64,000 nt of DNA from Nereocystis luetkeana. Lineage: Eukaryota > Sar > Phaeophyceae > Laminariales > Laminariaceae. The stretch lies in contig JARUPZ010000023.1 in assembly GCA_031213475.1 (NCBI GenBank), positions 7,210,157 through 7,274,156 of the forward strand, read 5' to 3'. The first letter of the stretch is position 1; every line of letters begins with the position of its first letter. This document shows, one piece after another, positions 4,365 through 57,784 of the stretch. The position numbers and the translations under genes were made by a program. The notes under the pieces are model-generated. The model had not been told where the DNA came from. It made no database searches and was given only the letters and a program-made list of their open reading frames with translations.

Positions 4365-7300
4365 GTGAGGCAAAAAAAGGACGAGATCTGAAATATTTTG
4401 CCACCCATGTATACGGCAATGGATCTCTTCATCGCAGGAGTTGTGCGGCATGTCAGCATTCGCGTACAAGCTCGTAGTCGCAAGCAAGGTCAAACTTTGG
4501 AGTTGGATATTGAGGTTGGCGTGGCTCGTGGACTACGCCAACAAGTACCTAGTAGGGTGCGGCTCGGAACGACTAGTTGCCCATAAAACGAGCGCCATGA
4601 CTGGCAACGAGCAGATTCCACAGCGGTAAATATGCCTATGAAACGATGGCTTGTAATGAGGCGCGTGAGCGCGAAGCGCGGGGCTTTTCTTGTTTTTTCA
4701 AAGGATAAAATCCTCTTCATACCGGATCGTATACGAGGGTAGGGTGCCTTGCTTTGAGTTTTTTAGTATGTGTGTGTGATTCAACAATTGTTTTGGGCCA
4801 CGTTTGACCACCGCGCTCAACGTACTCGGCACCGATTATTTTCCAGTCCTGTTGGGCTCTGTACACGCACATATACGAAATAAACTTTTGTTCTAGAGCA
4901 AGAATTCTCGGATTAGTTATTTCTACTGCAGGTAAGGCACGTTCGCCGACGTGCAGAAAACGCCTGTCATTGATGTGGCAAAACCCGCCACCAAAACCCC
5001 TAGACCCGTCGTGAAGTCCCCGTTACTTTGTACCCACTACGAAACCCCACGAAGATTAATGAGACCGGCTAACCCGCAGCTTTTGCCCCGCGTCTTCCCC
5101 TGCGGGGCTAAGTAACATCTCACACCAACACTCTGTACATACCTACATTATTACCTCCTACAACTACGTACAGCTCAACAATCACACCGACTTGTTGCAA
5201 CCTGATTTCCCCCCTCTCTTGAGCGACAGGGCGGGCGGGTGGGAAAGTCGATCTTTCAGAATTGGTCTCGCTGTGTTCTACCACGCGAAGGTTGTGATAC
5301 CACGGTAACGACAAGACGAGCCCGCTCTCTCCTTCGTCCACTCGGACGTGCTCGTAGCTCGTTGCCTCCGCTGTCTTACGCCGGCGGAAGACTGGACGCG
5401 TGCGTCGCACACTTAATTGTACGTCGGCCTAATTCAAACTATTCCGTTACTCGAATTCAACCCGCCTCACAAACGCCAGTTTCCTTCGGAAACCTACATT
5501 TTGTTTCAGCTCAAGAATTCTCGGATTAGCTATTTCTACTGCAGGCAAGGCACGTTCGCCGACGTGCTGAAAAGGCCTGCCATTGATGTGGCAAAACCCG
5601 CCACCAAAACCCCTGGACCCATCGTGGAGTCCCCGTTAATTTTTACCCACTACGAAACCCCGCGAAGATTAATTAGACAGGCTAACCCGCAGCTTATGCC
5701 CCGCGTCTTCCCCTGCGGGGCTAAGTAACATCTCACACCATAAGGCCAGCCTGAACATTAATTGAACGCCCCGTGCTACTCGTACCCTAGCCCGTTAACT
5801 GATCTACCCCGATTGCGCGAGTGCGACGGAGACAGATTCTGCCCCTTCCCAAGCCTCCCGCACGTACGTCATGAACGCTCGTGACTTCCACCTGCCTGCG
5901 CGCTGAATTTGCAACTCTGGCACCCCTTGCGCAGCCAACTGGGTTGAACTACGGCTTCCGTCCGCGTGAACGGCTTCCACCCCTGTGGCGTACACCGCAC
6001 AGTCAAGGGTGACCCTTCCGGAAGCAGCGGATGAACGGCAAGGAGGTCCAGCAGCACCTCGAAAGCTCCCACCGGACCCCCGCTGGAGCCACCCGGTTTT
6101 GCTACACGCATTCGAGTGATCGTGGACCCCGCCTTCTTCTGGTCGGTCTTCGACGCTACATACCGCACCTGTACCGAGTCCGCAATCGATCTGTTATCCG
6201 TCGCAACCTGAACTCCCCCTCGAAAGAAAGTGAGACAGTTTCGCGTCAGACAAAACTCGGGATGCACTTTTTCGTTTGCGTATGCCCACAACTCCGACGC
6301 GCGACACAGCAGAAAATACGACAACGCGAGCCCCAACCACATGACTTTACCACCGTCTGCCATGCTCGTGACTGCTTGCCTACCGTGGGCAAGAACTGCC
6401 CAGGTCAGAGGCAGTCTAGTCTGCGCGGGTTTCTGCGCGGCCCCGTGCGCGCGGTAAATCCCCTTTCCCACGGCAACAATCATGCAGTGCGAGGTGGGGA
6501 GTTCCCACCCTGCATACATCTTGTGGAAGAACTTGATAGCGTCAAGATACCCTCGCACGGTGGACTGCTGGTTGTTGTGCACATAGCACCGACTCGCCAT
6601 GAACTCCATCAACTCCGAAAGCACCAGGTTGGGGTTGTCGGAATTACGTTGCACCCAGGGCTGCTTACCCTGCGCTGCCCTTTCCGCCACCCAGTCTCCA
6701 CTTACTTAGGTAATGTTTCGGGGTACTCTCTCCCACCGACCCAAGCGCGAGCGTCTCCACCAGACGAGCCACCTCCTTTTTAGCCTCCATCTTTCTTTGC
6801 CCTGTTCCTGTGGGCGTCGCCAGTGCATGTAGAGTGAACAGCGGGAAACGAAGGGGGGGGGGGGGGGGCGTGTGGCCCCCGTGGGGCGCCGTGCACGCGA
6901 AGTCAAAAAGAGTCCCGTCCGTTGACCATGATGCCCCACAACCGTTCGTCATGTCGGTTAGAAACGGTTTTGGTCCCCAGCACTACGTCAAAGATCCTTA
7001 ACCCCTGGCGGCCGATATCCTGCTCCACCCAGTCGTTGCTACCCGTCGCTTCCCTAACTTTTTTTTGTAGCTCGGCTCGTGGCCAACGCGATATGCCGTC
7101 CGCTAAGATGTTTTGCACGCCAGGTATGTGCTTGGCAGCGTGACTCCAGCCGCCCCTGATTTCAAGGCGGCCGAGCATTCTCATAAGTAGACACGCCCTC
7201 CTGTCTTTCGCCCCGCCGCACTTATTAACCCATGTGACGGCGGCGACGTTATCGCCACACATCGCGATCGGATCTCCTACGGACGCTGGTCTGTCCCCTG

Positions 7301-10300
7301 TCAATTCAAGCATCACCCACGCTGTCTCTGCCATCCCCAGTAACTCTAGCAAGTTGGTCGTGATGGTACAAGCTTCGCGTCGTTCGGCCTTCCGTTTTAG
7401 TTCTGCCGTTAGTGCGGGCGGTAGGTCGTATCTCCAGAAGACCTTCTTCCCGACGCAGTACCCGCCTACCGCTTCGATTCTGGCGTCCGAAAGACAGTGT
7501 CGTTTGGCCGGTCGTTTGAGCGCGGTGTAGCAGGGCGCACTCATTGCCTTCCCTATTTGCAGGAGCTTGTGATTTATCGCCCACTTCCAGAAAAGGAGGT
7601 CGGCGTGGAACTCTCTGCCTAGTCTAACACTGTGCTGATTCCTAGGGTTTCGCTCATCGTGCAGCCCCGTGAGCCTCAACAATCTCCACACGAAATACCT
7701 GCCGGCGCGTACTACGTATGTCAGGTTCCAGAGCTTCCCTGCCATACTGAGGACGTCCCTTGTTTTTGCGCGTCGTCTGTGCGTAGGCCAGTGATCGTCC
7801 TAAAGGCTATTGATCGCTTCTGTTTTTTCACGTGTCAAGGAGATTATCATGGTGTGCGAGTTTATGGTGAAACCCAGGGCATCAATCTTGGAATCCCAGT
7901 CTGTATTTTTTTTGGGCGATAGGATCGGCGTGGCCCCTGCCTCGCCCGACCCGAACAACCTTACGTGATCGGAGGCTGGCGAGGCCGAGGCGATTAACGC
8001 GGACAAGTCTACGTCTGAATGCTGCACCTTAACTAGCAAGTAGTCGTCCACGTATACGGTAACGTAGAAGGGGTCCGACTCCCCCCCCCCACGATTCGAA
8101 CGAATGTTTGCGTCTGCGGGTACACTCATGGGGTTTCCTTCTTCCCACCGGTCTACCACCTTCACATGAGCCATCATTTCTGTTCCTCCTTGCAGTATAT
8201 GGGCCGACCCCACCGTGGTATTACGGCGAGCGTGTTCAGCGGCTGCCGACATCACGCCCAAAATTCCGGGGGACCCTGACCAACCGAACGTCAAACGGAA
8301 ATCAATGACCACCAGTTCCCCTACAGTGTCGCAGAAGTTGTGAGCCTTGTCAGGGCCTATTCTGACGTTGCGAAAGGCATCAGAAACGTCAGCCTTGCTC
8401 ATCAAAATACGCTTGGTCGGGAATTTCTTTCGCAGGCTGACTATTTCCGCGAGGAATTTGGGAAGGGCTTCTGCGCACAGGCACGGAGGCACGCTGTCCG
8501 AGTCAGTGTCGGCATTCAATCCTCCCTTCCTCTTGTAATCTCTGCGCCTCGAAGGAGAATTCATTAATTATCCGAACCATGTGTGTGACGACTGCTCCCA
8601 GCGGTGACACCCGTAGGTGGGGGGTTTCGTGCGCGGCTGCTTTCTTTATAACGAGGCATTTTTGGCGTCTTACGTCTTCACAAAGCTTGTCCCAAATAAC
8701 TGCCATTTGCCCGGCGACGCTGCGGTGGTTACCATACTGAAGGGCTCGCTCCAGGCCTCGTCTGTTGGGTACAGCATGCACCGGGACCCCTCTGGTAACT
8801 ATCGTGATCAGTTTGTCAATGGCACCAAAACCTTTTATTTCCCCAAAGTACCGCTGTATTTGCGTGGCATCTACCGGCGGTGCTATCAGAGACCCCCCCA
8901 GCGCCCGGGCCACGTCGCCCACGACCCCGCGGTAGTGTCTCGTCAGGTCCGTGCAAATGTCGGCCAGCTTGTACAGCAGCTCTTGTTTAGCGCGTGCATC
9001 GAGGTTTTCCTTACCAAGGTTGGCTTTTTCTGTATGCCAGGTCCGTACCATGAGTTCGGTCTGCGGTTGACGAAGCGACTCCCCATCAGGAAGCCGCGAG
9101 CGTGCTGACCCGCAACCTGTCCGCGACTCGACCGGATCGAACGTGTGCTTGGCTACTCGTGGCCGGCGCGTTTCGCCTTGCCGCGGCTCGACGGCCACTG
9201 CTTCGATCCTGCCATGTGCGAGTGTTCGAGTGCGTACGAGTTCTGTTGGCGTTCCGCGTTTCGTATTAAGTAAGTATGGCGCGGACGATCACCATTGCAC
9301 GATCCTTACGCTGGGTCAAGTACAGTGAGCCCGCCCCCGCTGCCTGCGCCTCGCGCGAGGTCGGGCCGACCGACGCTCGCGGGAGGGGGAATCTAGCCCT
9401 GGGCAACCTGGCCCGCGAACGCGAGCAGCTAGGGGGTGAACTGATCGTCCCGTCTGGAAAGGAAAGGGGAAGGGGGCCCGGCCCTCGGAAACAAACGCCT
9501 CGACAACTGAATGAGTCCCCCGCGATCTCGGGACTGCCGACACTCGCGGGAGGGTTAGCCTCTCCTGAGGGGATTTGACCCACGAGCTCGAGTAACTGCG
9601 GGCGGGAAACTGTTGGCCCGTCTGCACGGGAAGAACCACACAAGTGAACCCAACCCGCGGAACCGAACACACCGAAGCTGACGGCGCCTCGCGCGTTGGC
9701 GGCACGGCCGGCGTTCGCGGGAGGGGGAGCCGAGCCCTGCGGAACCTAGCCCCCGCACTCCAGCAGCTACAAGGTGTGAGCTGGTTTTCTCGTCTGAAAG
9801 TGGAAATGAGGGAACCCAGCCCTCGGAACCGAACACCAAGAGACTGACGGCGCCTCGCGCGATGTCGGTGGCACCGACGCTCGCGGGAGGGGGAACCTAG
9901 CCCTGGGGAACCTAGCCCCCCGCCATCACGCAGCTACGAGGTGTGAACTGTTGTCCCGACTGACAGAGGAAAGGAGGGAACCCAGCCCTCTGAAAACAAA
10001 AAACCCCCTCGGCAACCTGAGTCTCTCGCAGCCGAAACCTGGGGAACCGAGCCCTCGCGTTCGAACAACTGTCGACTGTGACCTGCTGTCCCGTCCACAC
10101 GGGGGGGAGGAGGAGGGAACCCAGCCCTGGGAAACGAAAACAACCGGAAAAACACCCGAACTGCCGTAGCCTCGCACGAGATCGGCACGCCGACCCTCGG
10201 GGAAAGGGAGAACCAAGCCCAGGGGAAACTAGCCCTCGCACTCGAGCAGCTGCGGGATGTGTAACCTTCTTCTTGTGAAGAATACGAGGAACCTAGCCCT

Positions 10301-12217
10301 GGGGAAGCCTAATGCTTCTACGCTGGCGAGGGTTGTAGGAACCTTCCGCGGCTCGGTACGCCGACGCACGCAGAAGGGGGAACCAAGCCCGGGGGAGGCC
10401 CCGCCCTCTCACTCGCAACTCTGTTTTTGTTCGTTTGTTTGTTTGTTTGTTTGTTTGCTTTTTTTTCCTCTTTTGTTTGTTTGTTCGTGTTTCTTTCGGT
10501 ACTCTGGCACGTTTGAGTAAGCCGTCCCGCGGCACAGCCGACGCGCGCGGGACGGGGAACCGCGCCCTCGCGAGGGCCCTCGAGCAGCTGTACGTGAAGC
10601 ACGGTTGGCATGTCTGAGAGGAACAAGGGGACCTGGCCCTCGCGGTTGTCTGTCGCGCGCACGCTCGTGTTCATCCTGCTACCAACCGCCGGCTCTGCAG
10701 TCCTGCTTACCGTACCCCCGACCCGATTTGCAATACGTAATCCCGCTACGCGCTGCGTAGTTCGAACTTGCCCCCGCTAGATTGTATCAGACACTCACCA
10801 TCAAACAGAGCCGGCGAAACCGATCCGGGTGTGGGAACACTGTGAAGTCCCACGAACCTCGAGGCGTCAGCGAACAACCCGCTTGCTCCTGCTGCCACCC
10901 CCCCCCCCTGCGGTCGACCCTGCCTGGCGGCAGATCCCGTCTTGTCAGTTGCCGCTCCGGCTCCCGAAGAGGCCGCACCGCTCCCGCCCCCGGTGTAACT
11001 CCTGCTGAACCGCGCGACGCTCGGCTTCCGTCCCCCGTCCCCCCCGGCTACGCAGCTTCCCCCGGCGCCGGGGGCCTGCGACAGCTGGGGCGCAGGGGGA
11101 GGGGGAGGGGGTCGGGACGTGCTGCGCGCCGGGCCTGCCCCCCCCGTGCGGGCTGCGGGGGAGACCTGGTGATGCTCGAACGGGCAGGCGGGCCTGGTGC
11201 AGGCGTCGCCACTCCCCGCGTAGCGGCACGCGTTGGTGGGTAGGTTACCCAGGGCGGCGGGCCGCGGCTTGGGTGGGTTCTCCCCCGCCCCCCCCGAGCG
11301 CATCCCGCCCTTCGCGACGGTCGCCTTCCGTCCGTTGGCGCCGGGGGGGGTCTTGCGCTTCCCCGCCCCCCCGCCCTTTGCGGTCGCGCGGTTGCGGGAC
11401 CACATCTCCGAGCGCACGACCAGACTGTTTGTGCTGCCTTCCTTCACGAGCACCCGAAGTTGCTTGAAGGCGAGCGGCTGGAAGACAGGTCCGCTGCCAG
11501 ACGGGGGTGGCACGAGGGGGTTCTGCCTTCGCACGACTGCTGCGTCAACGGCGAGCTTGTACATGGCCTGCTTGATGTCCGCGTAAATGGCCTGCACGAC
11601 CACGTCTCGCACCTGCGCGTCATAGGCTGCGCCGCCACCGACCTCGATGAGACCCTCGGTCAAGTCCACGTTGTCGCCCATGGGCGAGCCGCGATGTTGC
11701 TGTACGAGCAAGTCGATAGATCATAATTGGTCTCGCTGTGTTCTACCACGCGAAGGTTGTGATACCACGGTAACGACAAGACGAGCCCGCTCTCTCCTTC
11801 GTCCACTCGGACGTGCTCGTAGCTCGTTGCCTCCGCTGTCTTACGCCGGCGGAAGACTGGACGCGTGCGTCGCACACTTAATTGTACGTCGGCCTAATTC
11901 AAACTATTCCGTTACTCGAATTCAACCCGCCTCACAAACGCCAGTTTCCTACGGAAACCTACATTTCTCGTGCGGTTCCGGTGGTAAGTCGTTCACAGTT
12001 GGTCGAGCTAGGTGCGGCAACGTGTGTAGCGAGGTGGCTGGGCCTTGGTTTGAAGAAACAGAACCGTAAACCATCATTTTTGTTTTGTTTTCTGAAGTTC
12101 TACTATACGAAACCCAACTCTACGAGTACTCGTTGGCAGATTGTGCCTGCCCACAGCAACGTTCGGGCTGTGCCCTAAGACATGCTGCAAGTTGGTGGTG
12201 TTGTCAGGCGCGTCGTC

Positions 12218-13160: not shown

Positions 13161-16100
13161 ACGGCATTGGTTTCTTCAAATAATGAACCCAAACATCACG
13201 GATACATATGACCGCGTACGAGTATGATACATACGTAGATCTCCGTTCTTGTTGGTTCAGCATACTGGTAACATCGTAACATGATATGGTAATGCGTATT
13301 CGCCCACAGCATGATGCATCGCAGATTTGACTACTGCAGGTACTGAGGTCGCGCCTCATTACCACCAATTACTAGTATACTCGCGCGCGCCCATTCAGCC
13401 GGGCGTCGTCAGTTACTGCTGCAGCAATGACAACCAACCAAGACCCTTGTGACCGACCGTTACCCCAGGAACATGGGGTGGTGTTTGGGTATATTCAAAG
13501 CTGCTGTGCACGCGTCGTTCGGCCCAAAGGTGCAGGATACTGGGTTTGGTAAAGGAGCACGGGATGCACTTTAACCGGGGCCGGGTACGTTTGCTCTTAA
13601 TAGCAGGCTCTTTGATATGCCTGTGCACGGACGTAGGAGAAGAACACGTTGACCACTACGTACCAGGTACTACTTACCCATATCAGCACGGGAGTGTCTG
13701 CGCAAGACAACCGCTCACCACGCCTATTTGCTGCCAATCCCCCGCCATACAAAATACCTGTCAAATACTTGTGCCAGGGCTAGGAGATTCAGGGAAGTGT
13801 GTATTTCCACCGCCCATGCCACCGTAGGGACTGAATTCGTTTTCACCACACTGCCGAAAGCACGGGGGTTGAGCACACTGTGCTGGGTAGGGGGTTCCTT
13901 TACCGCACTGACTGTGACGGCCGTTGTACGGGGGTGTTTCTTGCAACAGGGTACTCCGCCGGCTACGTGGCAAGCTCTTTCACATTTGGCCGATTCGTGA
14001 GCGGCTACGTTTGGGGTTACGCGACTGACATGGTCGGAGGGAAACCTGTTCTCGTCATAGGCCTGTCGGCGATCATCATCTGTTCCATCGGCTTCGGCTT
14101 TTCGAGCAGCTTTGTGTGGGCCATAACCTCCAGGTGCGCGCACAAATATACACGTAAATACGCATGTTAGGTCTTGTTTTGTGTGGTTGTCCTTATAGTT
14201 CGAACGCACGCCGACCATGCCAACCACGTACCCTCCCCCCTACTATGCCCGCCTTGAATAAATATGACCGTGAGACCCAGCCGTTCCGGTAAACTTGCAT
14301 TGAATGATGCTACAGTGGCGTTGAGTGATTTCCTCGTCAATGCTTTCGATGTCGTGTATTCGTTAGAATAGGTCAACCGTCCCCACCAGAGAAGTTGGTC
14401 TAAATACTTGCTGCTGAAACGATCGATTCAGGCCGGCTCCTTAGTTTTTGTTTATTTTGTGATTAGCACTAGGCGCACCATCACTACAGTAGGTTGAATG
14501 TAGAATATGTATTTCTGCCTAATCTATCTAAGGACATGTGAACGCTCCTGTTTCTGCAAGGCAAGTTTCGCCCCTGCTACACTAGATAGCGGTCAACCAC
14601 GCGTCCTGGAAGTTTCACACGAATGATGTTGTCAAGTACAACCTCGATTATCAATGCCCTTACGTACCGGTCGCGCAGATTCATCCTTGGGTTGCTGAAT
14701 GGTACCATGACTGCCGTGAGAATCCTGATCCACGAGATTTGCGAGCCGGAGCACATGGTAAAGGGAATGGCGTACATTGAAGGTGCAGCCCTGCGGTATA
14801 TGGTTGGACTTTGTGACGTATCTCACCGCTGGTAGTTGGTGGATCTGCCTCTTCAGAGTTTGCAGGATTGTATTTCTGTTGAAGACGAAGACTAGGCGAC
14901 CGACGACTAATGTGAAATAGTAGAGTGTTTGCGGCAGAGGTAAAAAAAAAAAACTTCACTTGCGCTAAAAAAAGTGAATTTCCTTCCCTTCCTGATTTCG
15001 GTGTGTTTGTGAGCGAGGTAAAACGAATCCTGCAGGCGACGTCTCCGAAAATAAGAAGGGAAGGGGGGAGGTGAGGCAAACGCGCCAAAAAAACCCGAAA
15101 AACTAAAAAACAGCTTGGGAGTAGCAACGGTAGCCCAACAACGTTTTGGTGGCAGAGTTGACAGCGGTGCCACCACTGCCAGCCCACGACTGCAAGCAGC
15201 AGCACAGCAAGCGGCAGCTAGCAAGCGCTAGCCGCAGCTAGAGGCAGCTTGGGCAACAAAAATAAACAGCGTCAGCACCAGCAAGCACCAGCACCAGCAT
15301 CAGCCACCTTCCCTTTTTGGATTGGTGCTGCTGCTGCTGCTCCTGCTCCTGCTGCGCTCAGCCTACGCACGCCACTGTGCCGGCGGGCTCCGCTCCGCCG
15401 CCCATGTCTCGGCCTCTGCTGCCGCCGCCGCTGCTGCTGCTGCTCCAGTGTGGTGGAATCGAAATGATACACGAGCTGTCGCGCTCTGTGCGAGCACGAG
15501 TACGAGTACGAGTGTGATTGCGAGTCCTTTTTTGGAACGAAGCATCCTCCACGTCGTCGCCAAGTAGGCGAAAGCGTGTACCCTATGTAGCAGCGGCGGC
15601 GGCCCGCTGGCACAATCCAACGCTGGTCGTGCGCGCGGTACTCAAGCTACACCTCTCGAGCCTCTGTGCTCCCAGCGGTTGTCGTGATGCGTACAGCAAG
15701 CAGCATGGTGGCATGGAAGATGCTCGGTGTTTTGATCCTTCGAGATTTGAGATGATGCGTTCTGCGTCGGGATAATGCTCGGTGCGTGTAGGCCAATGAG
15801 ACAGAGAGCCAAAAATTACCGCAACTTTTGATGAAATCCTGACTTGGCTGAAGTACCTTTTCGCGTTTTTTTCAGAAATCTACCTCAAAAAGGTGCCTCG
15901 GGAGATTTTTTGGAGAAGCAAGAGTAAAAAAAACAATCGCAAACACTCCAGTGCAAGCTGACTCAAGGTTTCGTGAGACTGGAAGCAATTTACGCGCGCA
16001 CCAGGGAATTAATTGTTCGGTTTGATTCAGATTCCGCGGGCAACAACGATCGACCCTTTTATGTCCATCGATGAGCATAAGGGTGGTTCAAAATGTATGT

Positions 16101-19100
16101 GTCACATTTGTGTAGGGGCCTACTTCGCACTTGCAATTCCCTACATCTATGACTCTGAGAGCTTCAGCAGTCCTTGCTGTGTACGGCTGTTGCCGCTGCT
16201 ACGGTAATACTGGAGATGAAACGACCTACCACACGACTTCTCGACCTCCTCGTTGGGCTGAACAGGGTGTCGCTGTGACTAACATGGTAGCGTCCACGAC
16301 GATACGATACTGCAATACTGCCGATGCTGCAGAGCCAACATGGCGAGGATGGAATCTACTTTTTTTTCCCTTTGGGTGCTTTGGCACGCCTTTCATGGGG
16401 AATGGGAGCCCCATGGAAGCCCCGCTGGAGGCTCAAGAAATAACAAATCGATAGCCACGGGGGTTTCAGGGGGGTCCAATGGGAGCACCATGATCCCATG
16501 CAAAGCCCATCGGACTCCCATGAAAGTCCCACATCAGCACTCTAACCCATGGGAGACCCATGGGAGTTACGTGGGCACGCCCTAAACGCACGAGACCCAC
16601 GGAAGTCCCATGGGAATCCCATGGGAGTTACGTGGGAAAACCCTAAACGCACGGAAGACACACGGATGTCCCATGGGAATCCCATGGGAGACCCATGATA
16701 ACACTATAGACTCGTGGAAGGTCCATGACCCATGGAAGGGATACCCGTGGGAAGGTAATGGGAGACCCATGGAATACACTGGGAGTTCCGGGGGAGTCCC
16801 ATAGAAAACCCATGGGAGCACTCCAAACCCATGGGAGCCCTTTGCCCTTTGCAAGACTAATGGAAGAACCATGGGAGCACTACAATACCGTGGAATTCCC
16901 ATGGAGTTCCATGGGAGACCCATGCGAGCACTCCAAACTCGTGGGAGTCCCATGGGCCAGCACTGTAAGTCCTTGGTAGTTGTATGGGAGACCAATGGGA
17001 AGGCCACAATAATTCAAGTCCCATGGAAGCCCCATGGGAGAGCCGTGGGGGTTCCATGGACCAGCACTATAAAACCCACGAGAGCATCACGGGAGTTCCA
17101 AGGGAACACAATAAACCCATGAAAGACCCATGGAAACCCCATGGAAAACTTCTGGTAGACCCATGGGAGCAGAACAGGCCCATGAGAGCCCGATGGGAGT
17201 CCGATAGGAAACCCATGGGGGGTTCAAGGTACATCACTGTAAACCCACGGGAGACCCATGGGCCAGCACCGTAAACTTATGGGAGTCTGTTGTGAGTGAG
17301 GGGATCTCCCTCGTTAGGAGATCTCTTTAGCCTCAGGGGATCCCCCCTTACCTTAGGGGACCCTCTACTCCCTCAGGGGTCATCACTGTAAACCCACGGG
17401 AGACCCATGGGCCAGCACCGTAAACTTGTGGGAGTCCGTTGTGAGTGAGGGGATCCCCCTAGTCAGGAGATCTCTTTTGCCTCAGGGGATCCCCTCTTAC
17501 CTAAGGGGACCCTATCTTCCCTCAGGGGGTCCCCACTTGACTTAGGGGATCCCCACTTATGTTAGGGGATCCCCAACAGGCTTAGGGGGTCCCCAACAAG
17601 CTTAGGGGATTCCCAACCGGCTTAGGGGATACCCAACAGGCTTAGGAGATCCTCAACAGGCTTAGGGGATCCCCAACCGGCTTAGGGGATATCCCCCCTC
17701 GACTACTCAGCTACATGGTTTAACAACATGGTTTAACAACATTACATTTAGGTCATTTTCCAATATCCTTATGTGATATTGGAACATTACCCAAATGGTG
17801 TTAGGTTAGCGAACCCCCCCTAGTTAGGGGATCCCTTTTGCCTTAGGGGATCCCCTCTTACCTTAGGGTACCCCCCATGTTAACTACATGGCATTCAACG
17901 TGAAATTGGGTCCAAGTCCTTGACAAAATAAGGGGATCTTATCGGCTTGCGGGATTCCCAACAGCCTTAGGGGATATACCCTCTTGCCTACTCAACTACT
18001 TTGTTTAACAGTATGATTTTCCAACATTACACTTAGGAGATGTTCCAATGTCTTGAAGTGATGTTGGAATATCACCCAAATGGGGTTGGGGGATCCCTTA
18101 ATGATCGCGATATTTTCCAAAGAACAAACTGAATATAGACGCTATATCTCTTGTGATTCGTACATGTTGGATGCCCATACAATACAGACTTGGTGAGGGT
18201 CCCCATAGCCGATTGGGGATCCCCTATGCCAGTTCGAGATCCCCTAAGCCGGTTGGGGATCCCATAATCCCGTTGGGGATTACCTAAGCCGGCTGGGGAT
18301 CTCCTAACGTACGTGAGGATCCCCTAAGTTGAGTGGGGGTCCCCTAAAACAAGGGGGAATCCCCTAGGGTAATAGGGGATCCCCTAAGGCACAAGGGATC
18401 CCCTAACTAGGGGGATTCCCTAACTTGCAACAAGAGTCCCATGTGTTGCCCATATGACTATCATGGGAGACCGACTGGAGACCCATGGGATTATTGTAAT
18501 CATGGGAGACCGACTAGAGACCGATGAGAGTATTGTAATCCCATGGGAGCCCCGTGGGAGTTCCGTTGGAGACCCGTGCGCCAGTATTGTGTCCCATATG
18601 GACCTATGGGAGCATCTAGTGATGATCCCATGGAAGCCCCATGGGAGACTCATACTAGCATAATAAGAGACCCATGGAAGTCCCCCATAGGACAGCACTA
18701 TTATTCAATGGGTCCGTTCGTCTTCCGTGGGTTATGGTAATCACATGGGTCTCCCATGGACCCTCCAAGGGTTTGCGGAGTTGGCCCATGGGACTCGGAT
18801 GGGGCTCCCTTGGCTGTGGTTCTGCTCCCATATGCTTCCCACGGGGCTCCCATGGGTTTGGGGGTTGCAGTGTGCTCCCTATGGGGTTCATATGGGACTC
18901 CGATTGGACTCCCATGTGTCTGTAGTGCCTCCAATGGAACTACCGTCGGTCTCTCATGGGGCTTTCATGGGACTTCTACGGGTATATTGTGTTCCATGAA
19001 CCTCACAAGGGTTCCACATGGGACTTCCATGACCATTCCATTCGTTTATATTCTTCCATATGACTCCACGAGTTTACAGTCCTGGCACATGGGACTCCCA

Positions 19101-22100
19101 TGGGTTTGCAGTGCTCGCATGGGTCTCTTGGTACTCCCATGGGTTAGTAGTGTTGGCCCATGGAATTCCCATGGGCCTCCCACGGGTTTAGAGGGCTAGC
19201 GTACAGATAATCCATGGAACTGCTATGGGACTTCCAGATCATAGTTTTCCTATGGGACAAAAACAAAATACGTGGAAAGTCGGTCCCCTGCCACGAAGTA
19301 TTAAAGCGGTCCCCTGATGCAGAGGTCTTTTGGTCCGTATCCCCTATAACTTTTGGCCCGTATCCCCTATACCGGTCCCCTAACGCACCGGTCCCCCAAC
19401 GCATTGTAGGGCTCCCATGAGACCTACACGAGACTCCGAAGTGATCGCAGTGCTCACATGAGACACATGTAGAAGGCCCATGGGACTTTCAGGGCAGTCC
19501 CATTGGTTTTCCACAGGATCCGATGGGACTCCTCCCCATGAATGTTTATGGCGCTTCCATGGGACTCCCATGGGGATTCCCTTGGCTGTGTGTGCCATGG
19601 GGATCCCATGGGGCTGTTGAAAATTGCAAGTAATGGAATGCACATGCCCTCGAATTGAGGGCGCTTTCTCTCACGTTTCAGCTCTTACGGGGGACCATAG
19701 TTAATAGGACCAAATATTGTTAGCAAAAATAGGTAAATATATATGTTTTTGTGTGTACCGTAGACCCTATTAATGGTTCCCCGAAATAAATACACCCGTC
19801 TTCGAACCTCAGGCAAACTAAAATACCCCTGGCAAATTGTACCCGTCACCCGAACATTTGCTTGGCATATCTCGAAGGAGATACTGCGACTTTCCGCCTG
19901 AAAAACTGGGACGTCGACCGTTCAGTTTTGCCAAAGTAGAGGTGAAGGCCTAAATGGGGTGCCTTTTGCCTTAACATGCATCACACTCGTTGACGAGACT
20001 CGCTCTGCCCGATCCCGGGTGCTGTTCAACCCCCATACATTTATTTTTCCCGCACGCGTTGATTGAAATTCAAGCATATAATAGCGCGCGTGGGCGGCAT
20101 TGACGCGTCCGCCCTCAGCGTGCCGGAAAGGTTCGGATATTACACACTGTGAAAGATAGGGCACGCAGACCCTGTCACTCGCGCCGCGAGCAGAATAAGT
20201 CGCATGCTTCCAGCACACGCTTACGCCATGATCCTGCCGTGCTTGTGGTCTTACCGCAATACTGGCGTGTGCTGCGATAGGGGTGGGACTCTTGCGGCTA
20301 AAATATGTCTGATTAAACGCAGCCCCTGAAATCAGGGATGACCCAATATCGCTGGAACATCATTACTGTAAGCGATTCACACCATGTTTTGATATGGGCA
20401 TTGTTCATCGGGCTGCACCTCCATTTTTGTCAAAGTCAAATCGTAGAGGTTTCGAGTGGAATATAAAGTTCCTCGAGTGAGAACCCTCACAAAATCTAAG
20501 GTACACCTATTTCAAAGCATTAATCTACGGTGCTGCTTGTGCTCGACGGCTGCTTGCAGGTTCCCGCGGCGCCGGCCTGGTTACTGGCACAGCGATCGGG
20601 GGGCTGCTAGCGCAGCCGGTTCTGAATTACCCGAGATTATTCTCCCCCACTGGGGTTTTTGCCACGTACGTGTTCCGGCTCTGATTCGTACGTACCGTAC
20701 TGGAGCGTCTTGCCATACTGCGTGCACGAAGGGCTGTGTTGGCATCTGACTTTGTTCGAATTGTTGTGGTAACAGCCGTTTCCACAGCATTGGCCTCAGT
20801 GGAGCGCTAAAAGTGTGTATACGTCGTGTCGGTGTCGCCGATTCCACTCATAATATGCTATTAGTGCGTAAAGGTATCTCTTCGACACTGAGTAATATTG
20901 CATGTCCCCCATTCCATATCGCGCCTTCACGAGATATGGCTGGGCAATTCGTTTTGCGACCTCGGCCTTTCCTTACTTACCTTCTCACATGCTATGTGCT
21001 CGTCGGCAGGTACCCATTCCTGCTCCCTAACCTGGTTGGAGCCTTATTTGCACTCTTGACGTTACCGCTGGTGATCGCCTATGTTCCTGAAACCAAGATA
21101 GACTGCAGAGGTCCAGCCGAACGGGACGCTAGTAGGTGAATCACAACGAGTACCCGCTGCAGCTTGCGCCCTAGAAGTAATCAGGTTTAAGCGTGCCCAA
21201 GGGGCGATTGATGAATGCTTTGTGGCCAACAGTGTCGTATAATAGTGGCGTCACAATGCTTGGACTTGCCTCAATTGTTGTATTCGGCGCAGGATTCACC
21301 CACGACGCCGCATTTGGGCTGACTGAAGCAATGGCTTGCTACCGAACATTGTTTTGTATCCACTGTAACGCGGTTTGGCTCACCCAGTCGTGATGCGGTT
21401 GCATCAATGTGTGTACGTATGCCTGCAACTATCTAATAGACATGCGCGCTGATACTCGTAGCGGGTCATCACATTCATGCATTTGCAACTGCTGCGCTGA
21501 TCATGAGCGTGCTCCTCGTCTTGCGGCGAATCGCGAGGCTGGAAACAAGATACTTGCGAACTTTGCAGAGCATCTGGAAAACGAGCCTCCCGTCACCCAA
21601 TGCTCTCAATATTTCCCCCTTCCCGGCAACCTATGGCGCCATACGTGTGCACTAAAATTTGGACACACAGCGAGTCGGCGATATCTCGCAAGACTGATGC
21701 TACTCCGGAACGAGGTCACCGGCAGGGAAGCGGAGATAACTTGATTTGCGAGGAATACGGGGGCCATGCGGGGAGGAGGGAACAGTTCCCTCAACAAAAA
21801 CGTTACTCAGCCATCTCTTCCCCATACAAGACCAACGGAAGTGAAGAAATTGACTCCCTGGTCAAAGACCCGGCTAGGATGCAGCTTATTCCCGCCAACA
21901 CAACCGGGAAGCCGACAGAGAAGTACGACCTTCTATCAGATGATCGCACGGCGGCTGCTAGCTTGAATGCCATCGAAACAGGCGTTTCCAACGATGAAAA
22001 CCCTACCAGCACCGACCGTTATGATGAGACCATGCTTCAACCGAACAGTGGCCGGGAAAATATCCCCATTTGGGGCCCGCGCGGAGTGCTTGCCATACCG

Positions 22101-24539: not shown

Positions 24540-26680
24540 TCAGGTGGCTCTGCTGCAGTGGCGGGCGAGGGGGACATATATCGCTTGCAGACGTTGCGCG
24601 TGCGTTCATTCCTAGCGATAAATAGGGCGAGAAGCCTAAAGAGGACTCACCTTTCTGATGACCGGCATGAGTTTGATTGTATAGGCTGCGCTCGGGGTGA
24701 CAAGAGCCCGTGCACTGTTTCCTGAGAGTATGTTGCTTAGCAAGAGGGGTCGGGGAGCTTGCTCCGGGAAGGCAACAATGAGCGCTCCCAATGCTGCCGT
24801 ACCCGGTACGTGGTAGGTACTCTAGTATGATACAGCTGCAAACATGTGCTGTGGCCGTTCTGGTGGAAACCCCGAGTATGGTGGATACAGTCGCGTTGGA
24901 GCAGGGTGGCGTGGTGGGCGCTGCTGGCGGCTAGTTATATTTTCTGCATCTCTGAGTGGGAGCAGGGTACCAAGTGGGATCAGGTCCGGGTGGGATCAGG
25001 GTGCCAAGTGGGAGCAGGGTTAGTAACTGCGTGGACCTGTGAAATTCTCAGACAGACTCGTGTATACAAGTAATTCCTGTCGTGTTTTTTGCGTATTATA
25101 CATGTGCTCGTGCTGTATGCCATGCCGTTGTGGTTGGCCGGTGACGGCATTCGGAACTCGTACCAGTCCCAATACTGATTTATGTGACGTATCCCGAGGT
25201 CTTCAAATATTAGCCTCAAGATCTCCGCCTCAAAACAATCGCCCTCAAGAGCTCCGCTTCAGAATTATGTACCGGTAGTAGTTTGGTGGCGACGGGAAAC
25301 CTGAGATTAAATCGTTGGGAAGTATATTCGATTGCTCTCTTCGCTTCGATCACAATGACGGAGACGCACAGGCCTGGGTTTAGTACTTGCAGCAGGAAGT
25401 ACACATCTGTTGCTTCTGTAGCCCATTCACGGTGCGCTTGTTGCTGTTTTTTTTTGGCCGTCTGCCACTCGGAATGTGTTGGACAGATCGTCATAGTTGG
25501 ACTGGATGAGGTGCATCACAATCGGCATATTCCACAAGTGGTAACTTGTGGTCTCTACAACGGCTTCAGAAAACTTGTCTGTCTGTCCTACCAGGGTCAC
25601 TCAATGGTCACCTACCGACAAATTTCTTTGGGAACAGCTACGCCCAGCCGCACGCATCAGGTCGAAGCCGCGGAGGCGATCGTCATGGTCCAAACCACAT
25701 CTCTTCGGGTGCCCTGTGTGTGGAGTTATCAGAGTTGACTTCCAGCATCCCAACCGGGGTGACGGGACGTGAGCTCGCTTGAGGCCAGCGGAAAAAATGT
25801 TTGTCTACTCTATCATCTAGTGGAATAATCTGGAATTATGGAACTGTGCTACGAGCGATCAGCAGCACAGCAGTGACAAATGCTTTCCTTCGTTCCTCGC
25901 TTCGTTCCGTCCTTTCCACCCTCCCTCCTTCTCTCCCTCCATCCCTCCCTCCATCCTTCCCTTGCCCACTCCCTCCCCTCGCTGTCTCCCTCCCACCCTC
26001 TCTCCTCCTTACTTCTTGTCTTGCCCTTCCTGGTACCTGATACCTGAAAGTTACTCTGACCTCTAAGACGATATTGCGCTCCTAAAAGGGGTACGTAAAA
26101 CAAAACAAACTTCAACTTTTGAAACTTTCGTAATTTCAAAATACGCCAGCTGTGAGTTCGACAATGTGATCATACATAAGGACTTTTTCATACATCAGAA
26201 GCAAAAGAGGCCAAGAACGAGTACGATCTAGTGAGATTCAACAACAAATACGTACTTGTATGCGCCAAGATCTGCTGCAACATCGATGATACAACTTCCC
26301 GTAATCAGATTGAGCCGTCTGTGATTCTTTTTTTCGCCTTAACAGCTGAGCCCGATCCACGGGTCCCCAACCCCTGGCTTCTATAGTTGAAGCCCCGCAC
26401 ACATCCATAGCACACCAGCAACGGCCATGGCTGCTGGGAGCGAGCCCTCGAGGGGGTCGCTTGTGGCTCTGACACCAGAGGGTATAGGCCGGGTTTTTGC
26501 CGTAATTGCCGTCCGTAATTGAAATTGCTGATTTGCCGTATTTACACGTCCGTAATTGTTTCAATCTCCCGCTATCGCCATCGCTTGTCCTAAAGGGGGG
26601 TGGGAAATCTTCAACTTTGCAACTTTCCTACGTCAGCTGTGAGTGCTGTTTGTCGACTCACAACAATACGCGTTTTTTTG
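24540..26680. other. 3' side of the MFS gene; no gene seen
   Basis: No supported coding sequence. The stretch holds a polypyrimidine tract (25905-26020, CCCTCCTTC-like) and short CAAGTGGGAGCAGGG repeats near 24950-25020. Open frames of 70-150 codons overlap each other on both strands and match nothing I recognise. Confidence 0.5.
25905..26020. repeat. Polypyrimidine tract
   Basis: A CCCTCC/CTTCC-rich run on the plus strand, almost free of purines. Confidence 0.85.
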
Positions 26681-26689
26681 TATATCCTT

Positions 26690-26902
26690 CGAATTGTCAT
26701 ATTATTATTCTTTGCGACGTCGGGGGGGGGAGTCAACTGGCGTGGTACGAGAGCCGCGGCACCGGCCGCTGACTCTCGTTGCCTATCGTACTGCCAGTAC
26801 CGGGGTTCTCCCCCCCAGCCGACTGGCCGAGGCGCAAACAAACGCAGTCTCGGACGTCCGAGACCCCCAATAGTAGTAAACTATTGACATTCCCCAAATC
26901 CA
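26690..26902 (-). repeat. Ngaro 2 split direct repeat B, outer copy
   Basis: Runs from GAATTGTCATATTATT to ATTGACATTCCCCAAATCC. It contains a poly-G/poly-C pair and is repeated at 27301-27519. Confidence 0.85.
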
Positions 26903-27050
26903 TTCTCCTGGTGAGAGCTCCGAATCGCTACCAGTTAGTCGCAGACCACAATAAAAGTATAATACGGTGTGGCCAGCACCATGTGGCCGCTCCGTACCAT
27001 CCACCTTCGAAAGAAGAAAGGGGCGGGTGGGCGGGAGGAACCACAAGAGG

Positions 27051-27280
27051 AGACCTAGCCTCTAGGCTTATCAATCGGCAGCGAGCAGTGCCGTGTTCTG
27101 CTTGGGCACTTATCATGAGAAGCTAGGAGGGGGCACGGGACGGGGGTGGCCGTTCTTCTCTTCTCTCTGCCTCTGGGCAACTCAAAGTACTAGTTTCCGT
27201 CGGTAGAGGCCATGACTATATGTATTCAATTCCGTCGGTTGTGAACAAAAGAGGCATCTCACGTGAACTTAGAGATACTA
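27051..27280 (-). repeat. Ngaro 2 split direct repeat A, inner copy
   Basis: Runs from AGACCTAGCCTCTAGG to ACTTAGAGATACTA; partner of 31573-31802. It contains AGCGAGCAGTGCCGTG and TTTCCGTCGGTAGAGGCC. Confidence 0.88.
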
Positions 27281-27290
27281 AGCTTTGTTG

Positions 27291-27519
27291 CATACCCTTT
27301 GAATTGTCATGTTATTGTTTTTCTCTGCGACGTCGGGGGGGGGAGACCACTTGCGTGGTACGAGAGCCGCGGCACCGGCCGCTGACTCTCGCTGCCTATC
27401 GTACTGCCAGTACACGGGAGTCCCCCCCCCCAGCCGACTGGCCGGGGCTCAAACAAACGCAGTCACGGACGACCGAGACCCCCAATGGTAGTAAACCATT
27501 GACATACCCCAAAATCCGA
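27291..27519 (-). repeat. Ngaro 2 split direct repeat B, inner copy
   Basis: The inner partner of 26690-26902, with the shared GGTACGAGAGCCGCGGCACC string and the terminal ACCATTGACATACCCCAAAA. Confidence 0.85.
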
Positions 27520-27592
27520 GGTCGCGTCGATACTACGGTGTTCGACTCTAAACAGTACCCTGGCCTGGCTGCCTCTGCCCTATCTTTCCCGT

Positions 27593-28570
27593 CTATGCTA
27601 GTTTACGAGAGACGATACCCGCGTCCTCTAGGTTATTGCGGGTGTATGTCTTGGAAGACTCTGAGGACTTCCATCTACCTTCTCTCTGGATCACCCTCTG
27701 CGGGACGTCCCCCCCCGCAGCTAGCGTAGTGGTTGCGCCGATCCGCAATGAGTGGAGACCGACTTCGCTGAGGTCGTCTCCTGCTTCCGCTACCACTTCG
27801 CGAAGTGCCCCGAGGGCCTCCGTGTACTCCTACACTCTGACCTCATTACCGTACCGATACGACGACAGGTGGGCGCTTTCTGGCAACGTTGGATATTCCG
27901 ACAACAACTCCACCATGAGAGCGACGGCACCGCCGCCTGCTCCTACCCCGGAACGCCCCCCAAAGGCGTCGTCGCGCGTGCGCACGATGACGGATCCTTG
28001 CTGAGCTTGGTCGCCTTTATGGCCTCGAAACAAAACATCGATGCTAGTAGCTTGATGCCACTGCAGCGAGTTCAGCCGCCGCTCCCCGTCGAATACCGCT
28101 ATGCCCCCCCTCGTCAAGCAGTGCACGGAGTGTACTACTCCGGATGAGGAGGCGAATATTTCGTCAGATCTCGCCATGAAAAAATAGTCCAATGCTAGCG
28201 ACAGCCAAACAATCCGGCCACCCGGGCCCCACGACAAGGCCAGACACTGTCCTCCCAACAACGAGTCCCACGAGATAGGGCGACGAATTATTTTTGGGGT
28301 GCCGGCGGCAACGTGCGACCGTGGCACCCCTTTTAAAGCGCGTTTAACAAGCGGCGACGACGTGGGCAACTCCATTTGCAGGTCTACGCGGTGGAAATTT
28401 AACACGGCTGATATTTTACTGGCAATAGTACCGGCTTCATTTCCCTCCGACGCGCACCACGCTACGAACTCAAGCAGCGCCTGGATGTTATCCGTGTTGG
28501 GGGCTGACGTGTCAAAATACGCCTCCCTTATCAATCCCCGAGAAGTGGTCCAAGACCGGAAACCTGACAA
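27593..28570 (-). pseudogene. Ngaro 2 tyrosine recombinase part
   Basis: N-terminal region with ASKISAVLNFHRVDLQMELP, the helix WLSLALDYFFMARSDEIFAS with a conserved Arg, and the C-terminal blocks GLHSLRIGATTTLAAGGDVP and REGRWKSSESSKTYTRNN, which hold the HxxR-type Arg, the second Arg and the catalytic Tyr. It is a clear phage-integrase-fold recombinase. Fossil. Confidence 0.85.
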
Positions 28571-28599
28571 ACATATGCTCGGCGAGACGAAGGCGCAAC

Positions 28600-29437
28600 C
28601 GAGTGGCGAATGAGCTGGCTGCCAGCACTCCTGAACATAACACGACGCCCGTGGGCCCCAAGACCTGTCGGCGCCAAGCATCATCGGGCCGGGACGCGCA
28701 GAGGTTACAGTCGATTGCCTCCCGCTTCCACCGTGATATGCCGTCGGCGATGGTGTTTTCAACGCCCGCGACGTGTAACGCGTCGAAACACCACCCGCTG
28801 CCTACCTCCAGACACCCTAAAAGACGCATGAGTGCCCCCGATCTGGGTTCCCCACCCCCCCTACATTTGGAGACCCAGTGCACAGTGCACGTATTGTCTC
28901 CCCGCATCCCGATCGGGGTTCCCCACCCCCCCTACTTAAGGAGACCCATTGCACAGCGGACGTGCTGTCTCCCCGGATCAAGACAGTGCCTCGCGCTTAG
29001 CTAGGCAGTGTGCCCAACTCGGAAACGAATATCCGCGCTGTCACGACCATGCCCAGCAACTCGAGCACATTGATCGACACATCGTTCCAACCACTAACCT
29101 TCTCGCGCAGGCGAGCACGAACGCCTGCGTTGAATTCGACGCGCCACCACACGCCGACCCCAGGAACGGGCCCCAAGAAATATCCCTCCATGGCGTCCAT
29201 GGAAGCGTCTGGCCACAGTGTAAACGCCAGCGGCTGCATGTAACTACGGCACAGGGGGGCGGAGAGGCGGCCCGCCACGGAGCCTAGCTCTCCTTCTACC
29301 ATCAGACGCCAGAAGGATATGTCGGCGTGGAACTCAGGACCCAATCGAATCCGTGAGGACAACGCCGCGCGCGCGTGCGGCACGTGGAAGTTCTCGTTCC
29401 ACGCGTGCACAGGGGCCAAGCCTACTTGGTTGAGCAT
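28600..29437 (-). pseudogene. Ngaro 2 RNase H part
   Basis: Contains WPDASMDAMEGYFLGPVPG, NVLELLGMVVTARIFVSEL, MRGDNTCTVHWVSKCRGGGE and VAGVENTIADGISRWKREA, the same four landmarks as in element 1. Fossil; broken. Confidence 0.8.
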
Positions 29438-30808
29438 GCGTCAGACAAAGTGTTTCCTGGTCGCACAACTTCGCACAGGTGCAGTAATCGACCGATGAGA
29501 GAGCGCAGCTCGCCCTCGGACGCGAACGCGCGGCCCGACGGCCACTCGCTCAGCGTGTCGCTAAGTTGCTCCAGCTTGGCTGAGGGAACGGAAATAGTCA
29601 TTGCCACGGTATCAATGTCCCACCCGAGCACGCACAACACGCTGTCCCACGGTGATATCTTCCGAGAAGACAGCAAAGGGGGATCCCGTGAGGATCTCTG
29701 CCCGGAAAGCCTAAAGTGGCCCGACGCCAGGGATGCGGACGCGCGTCGACAACGCCGACCGTCGGGCCACCACTGTACCTCCACTAGTATCCGGTCATCT
29801 ACGTAATACCGCACGAATAATTGGCTACGCCCCGTCCCCCCTTTCCCGACGGGGACCCGGCTCCCGGGCGGCAAGAGGATCGGCCGGTCGATTGCTCTCG
29901 GCGGGGCGACCGCGACATGCTGCGTCGCGATACGCCCCTGTTCCATCACCACGGCGTCTTCGTATGACGTGTGACGATGAGCGTGTTCGAGAGCTGCCGA
30001 AAACATACAAACGAACCCCGGCGAACTGCGCCAGCCGAACTGCAGCCGACGGTCGGTGTCGATCCACTCGCGAAAGCCGTATCCGAATACTGGCGCCCCT
30101 GCCCACTGTACACTAACCTGGCGGAACGCCTCAGTGACGTCGATTTGACTCAACACAATACGCGCGCTCGGCCAGAACCGACGACGCAAGTACAGAATGG
30201 GCCAAATGACGTCTCCCATTACGTGGCCAGACGCCACGGGGGGAGGCTTGCTCGAAATCAGTATCCGCGTTGACGCTGTGTGCGTACTGCGATGACGAAA
30301 ACGTTGGATAGTGAATTATCCGAGTTTTTGACGGGGATACAACCACGGCCAGCGGCGACAGCCGCAGGCCGGGGATGGTGTGCGCTTTGCTGCGCGGAAA
30401 AACGACTGCCCGCCTAAACCGTCCGTCGTCAAAAATCTTCGCGGTTATAGTGTCAGAGTGTAGGGCTACGCTGCTGTGGTTTGAGTATGCCAAGGCCGCG
30501 CCGGTGTCTGTACCTCCCTTCACGTGGACGGGGGCGCCGTGTTCGGTGATATCCGCTAATTCCTCTACCCCAGGGAACCCTTTCTGTCGTCCGAACCAAA
30601 AACGAATCCTAGCTGTTTTCACACGCGGCACGTCCAGGGCTGTCTCGATGGCCCGCATACACCCAAAGCGGCTACCACTCGCCCGAAAATCCTGTACATA
30701 CTGCTGAGCCACGTGGTTCATGATCTTCGACCGAGACGCGCAATCGATCGATGCGACATGCTGCATATCGCGCAACAACACCACACAGCGATCTAAAATA
30801 CTCGTCAC
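29422..30808 (-). pseudogene. Ngaro 2 reverse transcriptase part
   Basis: Contains SQIDVTEAFRQVSVQW (motif A), LQFGWRSSPGFVCMFSAALE (motif B) and FVRYYVDDRILVEVQW (YVDD, motif C), preceded by LSPLAVVVSPSKTRIIHYPT. The same domain order and block structure as element 1. Fossil. Confidence 0.85.
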
Positions 30809-30879
30809 ACCTGGGCCCCCAACGGACGCCGACCCCGGGCGTACAAGTTGCCCATCTCACGCTGCTGCTTCCGTACGCC

Positions 30880-31638
30880 CTACGATCGGCCTCGCCCCCA
30901 CTGAGGGGCGAGGCCCGCCTCCCTATTCGTTTGCCTTGGCCGCCGCCGAGCGGGTGAAGCCCCCCCCGCTCGACGCCCCGCTGCCGCTGACGCTGCCGCC
31001 GCTACTGGAAACGCTGCCACTTCCGCTGCCGCTGTCGCTGCCACTGCCGCTCCCGCTGCCGCTGCCACTGCCGCCGCCGCTGCTTCCACTACTTGCGCCG
31101 ATGCCCCCCCCCCCCGCCTTGCCCTTGCCCTTGGCCCTCTTTGCCGGAGGTTCCCCGGATACGACGCCACTGGCTGCGACGCCGCTATCAGTCGACTCCC
31201 CGCCGGCAACCGCCTGCGCTTATTGCAGCTGCCAGTCTTGCGAGCGGGACCGACGTGGGTGAACACGCAGGCGGCCCCGAAGCGGCATCTGCCGGCCTTT
31301 CCCCACGGCCGGCATTCGCCGCCCACGGCCCGGGCCGCCATAGTGGAGGTACGGCGAGGTTGCTGGTCTTCGGCGTTGATCAGGCCGCCGCGGGCGACGT
31401 AGCCGGAATGGCGAAGCCAGTGCAGCCCCGGGATAGCGGGGAAGGATTCCACCGGCGGAGGGTAGGTCCAAGAGTGGCCGCAGGAGTCGGAGACCCCGCA
31501 CAGGTCGAGCCTGAAGGTCTCAAGGTCTTTGCTGACCAGAACCGCCAGCCTGGCCCGGTTCATCACAACAGTAGATCTAGCCTCTAGGCCTATCAATCGG
31601 CAGCGAGCAGTGCTGTATTCTGCTTGGGAAATTATCAT
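30880..31638 (-). pseudogene. Ngaro 2 gag-like part with CCCH zinc finger
   Basis: Contains a CCCH finger, C-RPWGKAGR-C-RFGAA-C-VFT-H (C-x8-C-x5-C-x3-H), followed by an Ala/Gly/Arg low-complexity tail encoded by a GCCGCT-rich stretch (30940-31110). It corresponds in place and finger type to the gag-like part of element 1. Fossil. Confidence 0.65.
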
Positions 31639-31802
31639 GAGAAGCTAGGAGGGGGCACGGGACGGGTGTGGCCGTTCCTCTCTTGCCTCTGCCTCTGGGC
31701 AACTCAAACTATTAGTTTCCGTCGGTAGAGACCATGACTATAAGTAACTAATTCCGTCGGTTGTGAACAAAACAGGCATCGCACGTGAACTTAGAGATAC
31801 TA
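31573..31802 (-). repeat. Ngaro 2 split direct repeat A, outer copy
   Basis: The 5' terminal repeat on the element's coding strand; partner of 27051-27280. Confidence 0.88.
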
Positions 31803-52200: not shown

Positions 52201-52990
52201 CACGACGCCGTAACCACTACCGGTAGTTCGTACAAAGCCCGACAGAAGTTGGGCAAGCTGGTGAATCAAGGTCGGCAACCTGCCCACACTGCTTCGCTGG
52301 AGAAGCTACTGGAGACAGCATTACCCCTCGGACCGGACGACCCGATGGGTGGGACCAAGACCAAGGCTCACTATAGTAGTCTACAGGCAGGAGCCGCGGC
52401 ATGCTTCGGGCGAGGCCAACGGACTCACTCCGTTTCATACTGTCATACCCGCAGCAGAGTTCGTGGACATGGGAAGGCGTTTCAAAATGATCGAAAAGCA
52501 CGTGGCAGTGAGGTGGCCCTGCTACAATGCAGTTGCCGTGAACTCCCGCCACGCGCGCATCTGTCCTAGAGCAGGGGGCAGGAAACTTAGCACCATCCGA
52601 TTGTCCACGCGATGTTCCGTACGTTGAAGCGGCTAGAAATTCGACGCCAAGTGGAGAGCGGCGAACCATTCATCGCAGACCGAAATATATGCGGATAGAC
52701 ATTGTCGCCAGGAGAGGACGTCTCCGGGACGCTCCCAACAGGGAGTATAGGGAGAAGTACATACTGCTGGACGTCACCCATGCTGACCCTCAAGCGCAGA
52801 TACACCTCCGAGAAGGCAGTACTGATCACGATGGGTCAGCTGCCTTTACCTCCGAAGCGCGCAAGCGCCAACAGTACGCTTGTCTGGGGCATGTGTCCTT
52901 TGCCAAACGGAGTCACAAACTTGGCGCTTTCGCTGTGAAAAGGTTTGGGTGTCTCAAGGTAGAGGGCAGTAAGTTCATCGACTAGCTGTC
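52200..52990 (+). pseudogene. LINE C-terminus: Cys/His block and nuclease-like domain
   Basis: Reads WPCYNAVAVNSRHARICPRA (a Cys/His block, C..C.H....C), then YMRIDIVARRGRLRDAP and KYILLDVTHADPQAQIHL, then KRQQYACLGHVSFAKRSHKL and FGCLKVEGSKFID. The R-x-D...(about 25)...D-V-T spacing resembles PD-(D/E)XK nucleases that some non-LTR elements carry after the RT; this is an inference from the motif shape. Frame changes occur upstream. Confidence 0.6.
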
Positions 52991-57737: not shown

Positions 57738-57761
57738 CCTAACCCTAACCCTAACCCCTAA
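57738..57761. repeat. Interstitial telomeric tract (CCCTAA)n
   Basis: CCTAACCCTAACCCTAACCCCTAA, read as three to four TTAGGG units on the minus strand, flanked by an AAGCTTC / GAAGCTT inverted pair (57721-57727 and 57763-57769). It lies 25 bases before the 276-bp satellite. (The tract is given here as CCTAACCCTAACCC plus TAACCCCTAA.). Confidence 0.8.
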
Positions 57762-57784
57762 GAAGCTTCTATAAAAAACCCGCT

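Follow-up and report, generated by a model that had tools for sequence, protein, structure and literature searches.

A Predicted Transporter Intron Holds Two Nested Foldbacks

The window that we analysed, a 64,000-nt stretch of the Nereocystis luetkeana genome (C23:7210157-7274156), contains a predicted MFS transporter gene on the forward strand, one intron of which (GTGCAG...TTGCAG, 14783..20559) holds two foldbacks. The neighboring exons (ending at 14133, spanning 14679-14782 and 20560-20665, and starting at 21010) join in phase and show GT-AG borders. The spliced peptide gives one continuous match to MFS_1 (E 7e-16, residues 39-195), compared with 1.9e-6 for the best single exon, and matches solved MFS proteins at 4e-5. 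When 112 of the 211 open frames of the window were compared with Pfam, 13 families appeared at E ≤0.05, with only MFS_1 and Sugar_tr below 0.001. The intronic location proposed in a preliminary description of the locus, made from the DNA letters only, is therefore supported by the spliced peptide match.

As for the repeats, two families of short tandem units occupy approximately 16390-19612, one with a CCCATGGG core at 11 nt (CCATGG units) and the other with a GGGGATCCCC core at 20 nt (GGATCC units). Twenty-five of the 26 exact occurrences of CCCATGGG in the window, and all nine of GGGGATCCCC, lie inside 16300-19700, and no further copy was found elsewhere in the 64 kb beyond one 20-nt match. 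Aligning the left half of the stretch with the reverse complement of its right half gave a score of 502 (819/1146 aligned positions), versus 168 in direct orientation and at most 56 for 30 dinucleotide shuffles. Permuting the right arm in blocks reached the true score in 0/100 cases for 60-nt blocks, 0/100 for 100-nt blocks and 1/100 for 200-nt blocks. The arrangement is thus inverted rather than made of direct repeats only, and much of what had been described as a "giant foldback palindrome" stands, namely its inverted arms, complementary spacers and two kinds of palindromic unit. Its unity does not: instead of one element with one centre, there are two nested foldbacks, the GGATCC-unit foldback being inserted inside the CCATGG-unit foldback, as is apparent from dispersed relatives of the former and from a copy of the gene that lacks it. 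A single foldback over the whole stretch was dropped after the genome search had placed GGATCC relatives alone elsewhere. The heptamer ATGGAAT (16349-16355 and 19633-19639) was also discarded as a duplicated target flanking the entire stretch, since its left-side occurrence is not kept in the gene copy. It is one of five exact 7-mers found among 6000 end pairs (0.37 expected in random sequence); the other four, together with one exact 8-mer (CATGGGGA), are unit sequence.

The Outer CCATGG Foldback Is Split by an Inner GGATCC Foldback

The left arm of the outer foldback (16390..17281, forward strand), which is also found in the gene copy, is built of 11-nt units CCCATGGGAG plus A, T or C. Between 16380 and 17300, 45 units have at least 6/8 core matches, and their commonest spacing is 11 nt. 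This arm continues past the insert at 18439..18720 (forward strand), the two pieces being joined in the gene copy. Accordingly, 18430-18720 matches the left CCATGG block better in direct than in inverted orientation (scores 110 and 62), a seemingly "wrong" orientation that is explained if an insertion split the outer left arm. The right arm (18721..19612, reverse strand) is inverted relative to the left, with scores of 278 inverted and 72 direct for 18721-19625, except for an unmatched stretch at ~19260-19400 (19260-19410 scores 22 inverted and 20 direct against the left array, i.e., neither orientation matches). Spacer polarity is opposed between the outer blocks. In the gene copy, the unit pairs of plus type (17) all come before those of minus type (five). 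Once the insert is disregarded, the CCATGG units form a plain foldback centred at ~18715.

The inner element (17288..18432, forward strand) has the termini TGTTGTGAGTGA...TTGCAACA and lies between GGAGTC (17282..17287) and AGAGTC (18433..18438), a target duplication with 5/6 identical positions. Its left junction is covered by a 149-bp tandem duplication (17224..17521, two copies at 91%), which created a second 5' end at 17437; the terminus search found both 5' ends. The left array (17445..17696, forward strand) consists of 20-nt units, each with a 10-nt palindrome, and is mirrored by the right array (18191..18431, reverse strand). Unit spacings are 17, 19 and then 20 nt, the first spacings being alike in both arms. 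The centre (17697..18190) comprises a spacer, C1, with a small palindrome at 17745-17797, an extra array piece at 17816-17876, and, at 17944-18090, a stretch that repeats 17659-17805 in direct orientation (80%).

Across the inner arms, 17438-17675 pairs in inverted orientation with 18194-18431 over 238 nt at 78%; the K2P distance between the arms is 0.265, or 0.226 with other alignment settings. The order of the units is mirrored as well: with the cores left out, comparison of the 13 left and 12 right units by their spacers scores 89, a value that none of 5000 permutations reached (best, 82). Since the arms mirror each other unit by unit, this shows that both descend from one inverted duplication. 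Palindromic units, inverted arms and mirrored order together bear out the earlier view that the locus is palindromic at two scales.

The Inner Element Belongs to a Dispersed Family with Common Termini

We searched 465,085,209 bases of the genome in 1987 contigs. The GGATCC part (query 1059-2053, equivalent to window 17438-18432) recurs on 13 contigs, at no fewer than 19 other places, and additionally in a C15 cluster (10.13-10.36 Mb); these figures are a lower bound, the whole-stretch query having yielded 149 candidates of which 40 were scored. Among the 19 loci fetched as a family sample (L011-L029), 18 have at least one end with the terminus TGTTGCGAGTTAGGGG. Nine (L012, L013, L014, L016, L019, L022, L024, L027 and L028) have arms that are self-inverted over at least 80 nt, the best being L024 (610 nt, 85%), with L013 (243 nt) as another example; identities in these two are 85-86%. 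The arms of three relatives differ by a K2P of 0.114-0.160.

Nine complete copies, including the window element, could be compared for their 6-bp flanks. A match of at least 5/6 was seen in four of them (window, L016, L018 and L022) versus 1/72 mixed pairs, for a duplication length that was selected post hoc from data already seen; no comparable peak occurred among own pairs at 4, 5, 7, 8 or 9 nt. In the remaining copies, no target duplication was found in L025, L027 or L019, L013 matches at 4/6, and L024 has an exact 5-mer instead. The ends of L018 and L019 were set by eye, and the 5' end of L027 is a weak match. Excluded from this count were loci with an end beside array sequence, which was taken as internal (L011, L012, L014, L017 and L029), those with one end (L015, L021, L023, L026 and L028) or none (L020), and L046 and L047, which overlap L020 and L023. 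The inner element thus has long inverted repeats whose arms contain internal tandem repeats, and its family has dispersed copies, common termini and a 6-bp target-site duplication, as expected for foldback elements. Discrete ends in other genomic copies, on which the preliminary description had staked its case, exist for the inner element; for the outer repeat, whose edges fade, the outer end recurred at up to two mismatches in 22 only in the gene copy.

Ten open frames inside the stretch had no Pfam match, and no transposase or autonomous copy was seen among them. Six patterns run against viral contigs returned one stretch (L001) with short matches only, which we take as chance, and two patterns run against genome contigs returned nothing, both of these contig collections consisting of viral and prokaryotic records.

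A Second Copy of the Gene Is Best Read as an Empty Site

At C23:7312195-7314307, 85 kb from the window locus, lies L010, a copy of the intron and exon borders of the transporter gene that aligns with window 14701-14921, 15950-17251, 18499-19689 and 19790-20700. It has the CCATGG arms, lacks the inner GGATCC element and has the target AGAGTC once. Window segments 17395-17443 and 18433-18490 join within its positions 2657-2749; the junction reads ...CTTGCGAGAGTCCCATG..., whereas in the window ...GGGAGTC precedes the inner element and AGAGTCCCATG follows it. The single AGAGTC and the missing element indicate an insertion accompanied by a 6-bp duplication, and L010 is best read as the corresponding empty site. 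The outer foldback, being common to both gene copies, is the older of the two.

The gene copies differ by a K2P of 0.122-0.151 in their flanks and CCATGG arms, and the inner arms (0.226-0.265) are more diverged than that. Since the insertion appears to be younger than the gene duplication, the inner arms were probably already unequal on arrival; the alternative is a clean loss of the element from the other gene copy.

Origin of the Two Foldbacks

The inner repeat is very probably a transposable element of the foldback type, non-autonomous and making a 6-bp duplication, that entered the left arm of a CCATGG foldback older than itself. The arms of the element consist of arrayed palindromic 20-nt units with TGTTGCGAGTTAGGGG at their ends. 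As the empty gene copy shows, the element entered the CCATGG left arm of the window gene copy after the transporter gene had been duplicated, with the CCATGG foldback already in place, and it duplicated its 6-bp target. In Galileo, the long arms contain repeats to which the transposase binds (PMC3688188, excerpts); by the same reasoning, the inner element may have been moved by a protein with affinity for its repeated palindromes, either a transposase or an integrase, with its gene lying elsewhere. The 149-bp tandem duplication and mutations would later have blurred the element.

That the inner repeat might instead represent GGATCC satellite arrays spread by recombination, the gene copy having deleted its array, agrees with the widely varying array length among copies, with arms in the window copy that diverge more than the gene copies do, and with the C15 cluster, which would reflect spread by local duplication. 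However, common termini in 18/19 loci with 6-bp direct repeats, and exactly one target sequence in the gene copy, make this unlikely. As for the outer repeat, an intronic minisatellite with an inversion may fit it, although the same model is a misfit for the inner element, given its ends, its copies and its empty site. We lean slightly toward a minisatellite that grew locally and was inverted in place before the gene was duplicated, since its edges fade and 18721-19625 as query has strong matches only at the window locus and the gene copy (16 matches, 10/10 candidates scored). Weak CCATGG arrays do occur at six further fetched places (L040-L045), and two unrelated ones are inverted (L040 on C5, 271 nt at 68%; L041 on C19, 110 nt at 68%), which speaks against purely local growth and for a second family of foldbacks, of which the outer repeat would be an old mobile member. 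The end of L041 moreover partially matches the outer end in the window (19/24; 38 control strands gave no more than 16), for a terminus that was picked post hoc. Yet, at two or fewer mismatches in 22, the outer end matches the genome only at the window locus and the gene copy, the arrays of L042-L045 are one-sided or nearly so, and the flanking ATGGAAT is no more than one of the five 7-mers mentioned above, so that a mobile origin of the outer foldback is conceivable rather than favored.

Predicted Folding of the Intron RNA

The long RNA hairpin envisaged earlier is supported as a prediction. For 16380-19625, the predicted minimum free energy (MFE) is -1629 kcal/mol with 661 pairs across position 17950, compared with a mean of -1206 kcal/mol (-1185 to -1230) and 62-295 such pairs in 15 shuffles; folding the whole intron gives 660 cross pairs. 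Two other shuffles gave -1187 and -1195 kcal/mol, and four other stretches of the window -1054 to -1131. When the right half was reverse-complemented, the MFE was -1441 kcal/mol with 166 cross pairs, so that ~235 of the 423 kcal/mol excess is independent of the inverted arms. The intron RNA is thus predicted to form long imperfect hairpins.

Both the folding energy and the cross pairs might suggest that the hairpin is functional, giving rise to small RNAs or regulating the transporter gene. Against this, the arms diverge by ~20-29%, the longest listed helix (span of 500 or more) has 29 pairs, and Rfam gave no match; we find such a role highly improbable. The unit dyads show no excess of compensated changes (3 versus 2.0, 1 versus 1.9 and 1 versus 2.3 expected), which gives no sign of selection keeping the palindromes, in a test whose units were chosen by core, so that core conservation there is biased. 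Both foldbacks are today probably inert intron sequence, predicted to be able to fold as RNA.

Comparison with Known Systems

Target duplications are ~9 bp in Mutator elements, 7-8 bp in P elements and 8 bp in hAT elements, lengths at which own pairs of the inner family show no excess. Elements that use a retroviral-type integrase, such as Polintons and LTR elements, usually make 4-6 bp duplications, with TG...CA ends in LTR elements. In sequence, the inner family resembles the latter group by its TG...CA ends and 6-bp duplication; unlike in that group, no integrase was seen in the stretch, and foldback arms of palindromic units are atypical there.

In open-access papers, we found no named family with GGATCC or CCATGG palindromic units, in line with the preliminary description, and the word "foldback" does not occur in the main text of PMC12477816. 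Foldback-like elements are characterized, in the excerpts of PMC4079207 and PMC3573991, by long inverted repeats with internal repetition. Judging from the former, the inner element resembles Tetris, a foldback-like element of Drosophila virilis, in which the long inverted repeats are tandemly repetitive inside, modular and rearranged, known copies lack a transposase, and target duplications are present. However, Tetris is Mutator-like with 8-10 bp duplications, in contrast to 6 bp, and its units are 220 bp, in contrast to 20 nt with a 10-nt palindrome. Similarly, Galileo, a Drosophila element of the P superfamily, has inverted repeats of up to ~1.2 kb with internal repeats that contain transposase-binding sites, but it makes 7-bp duplications (PMC3573991 and PMC3688188, excerpts), and no P-type transposase was seen among the ten frames of the stretch.

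A bolder and rather doubtful proposal is that the inner family is a new lineage of foldbacks moved by a retroviral-type integrase, as its 6-bp duplications and TG...CA ends may suggest, with phased palindrome arrays (20 nt, two helical turns) as arms, which would serve as dimer-binding platforms, and that a second family, the older CCATGG one (one turn of 11 nt), would follow the same principle. If true, one genome has evolved such arms two or more times. The inner family offers a testable idea on why foldback arms are repetitive. The nested foldbacks exemplify how two elements can be mistaken for one giant palindrome, and they provide a foldback family with both an insertion and its empty site, the 6-bp duplication being unlike those of Galileo or Tetris as given in the excerpts above.

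Other repeats in the window and the genome

A small MITE-like repeat of about 110 nt is dispersed in the window, with copies at 19690-19789, 55228-55333, 60389-60509, 61415-61528, and 61592-61686. The copy at 19690-19789 has no counterpart in L010, the duplicate of the MFS transporter gene's intron and exon borders, which carries its own copy, with inverted ends, at L010 2510-2623. The sequences point to duplication of the gene first, followed by insertion of the repeat. L010 also contains nothing matching the intron segment 14922-15949 (~1 kb), which is perhaps another insertion or a loss.

On C15, another contig of the assembly, numerous matches to the GGATCC foldback (17288-18432 in the window) occupy 10.13-10.36 Mb. 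Among the matches listed, orientation alternates and steps are regular, the pattern that tandem duplication of one large inverted pair would give.

Elsewhere in the window, an inverted pair of ~740 nt (52690-53428 and 56759-57489, 79% identity) is separated by 3.3 kb. A tandem array (57756-59566) comprises 6.6 copies of a 278-bp unit, and open frames 139-207 aa long overlap it.

Two retroelement-like units are also present, at 4886-11966 and 26674-31802, for which Pfam returned only matches below threshold. Both contain split direct repeats (98% and 93% in the former, 91% and 89% in the latter), and their layout is DIRS/Ngaro-like.
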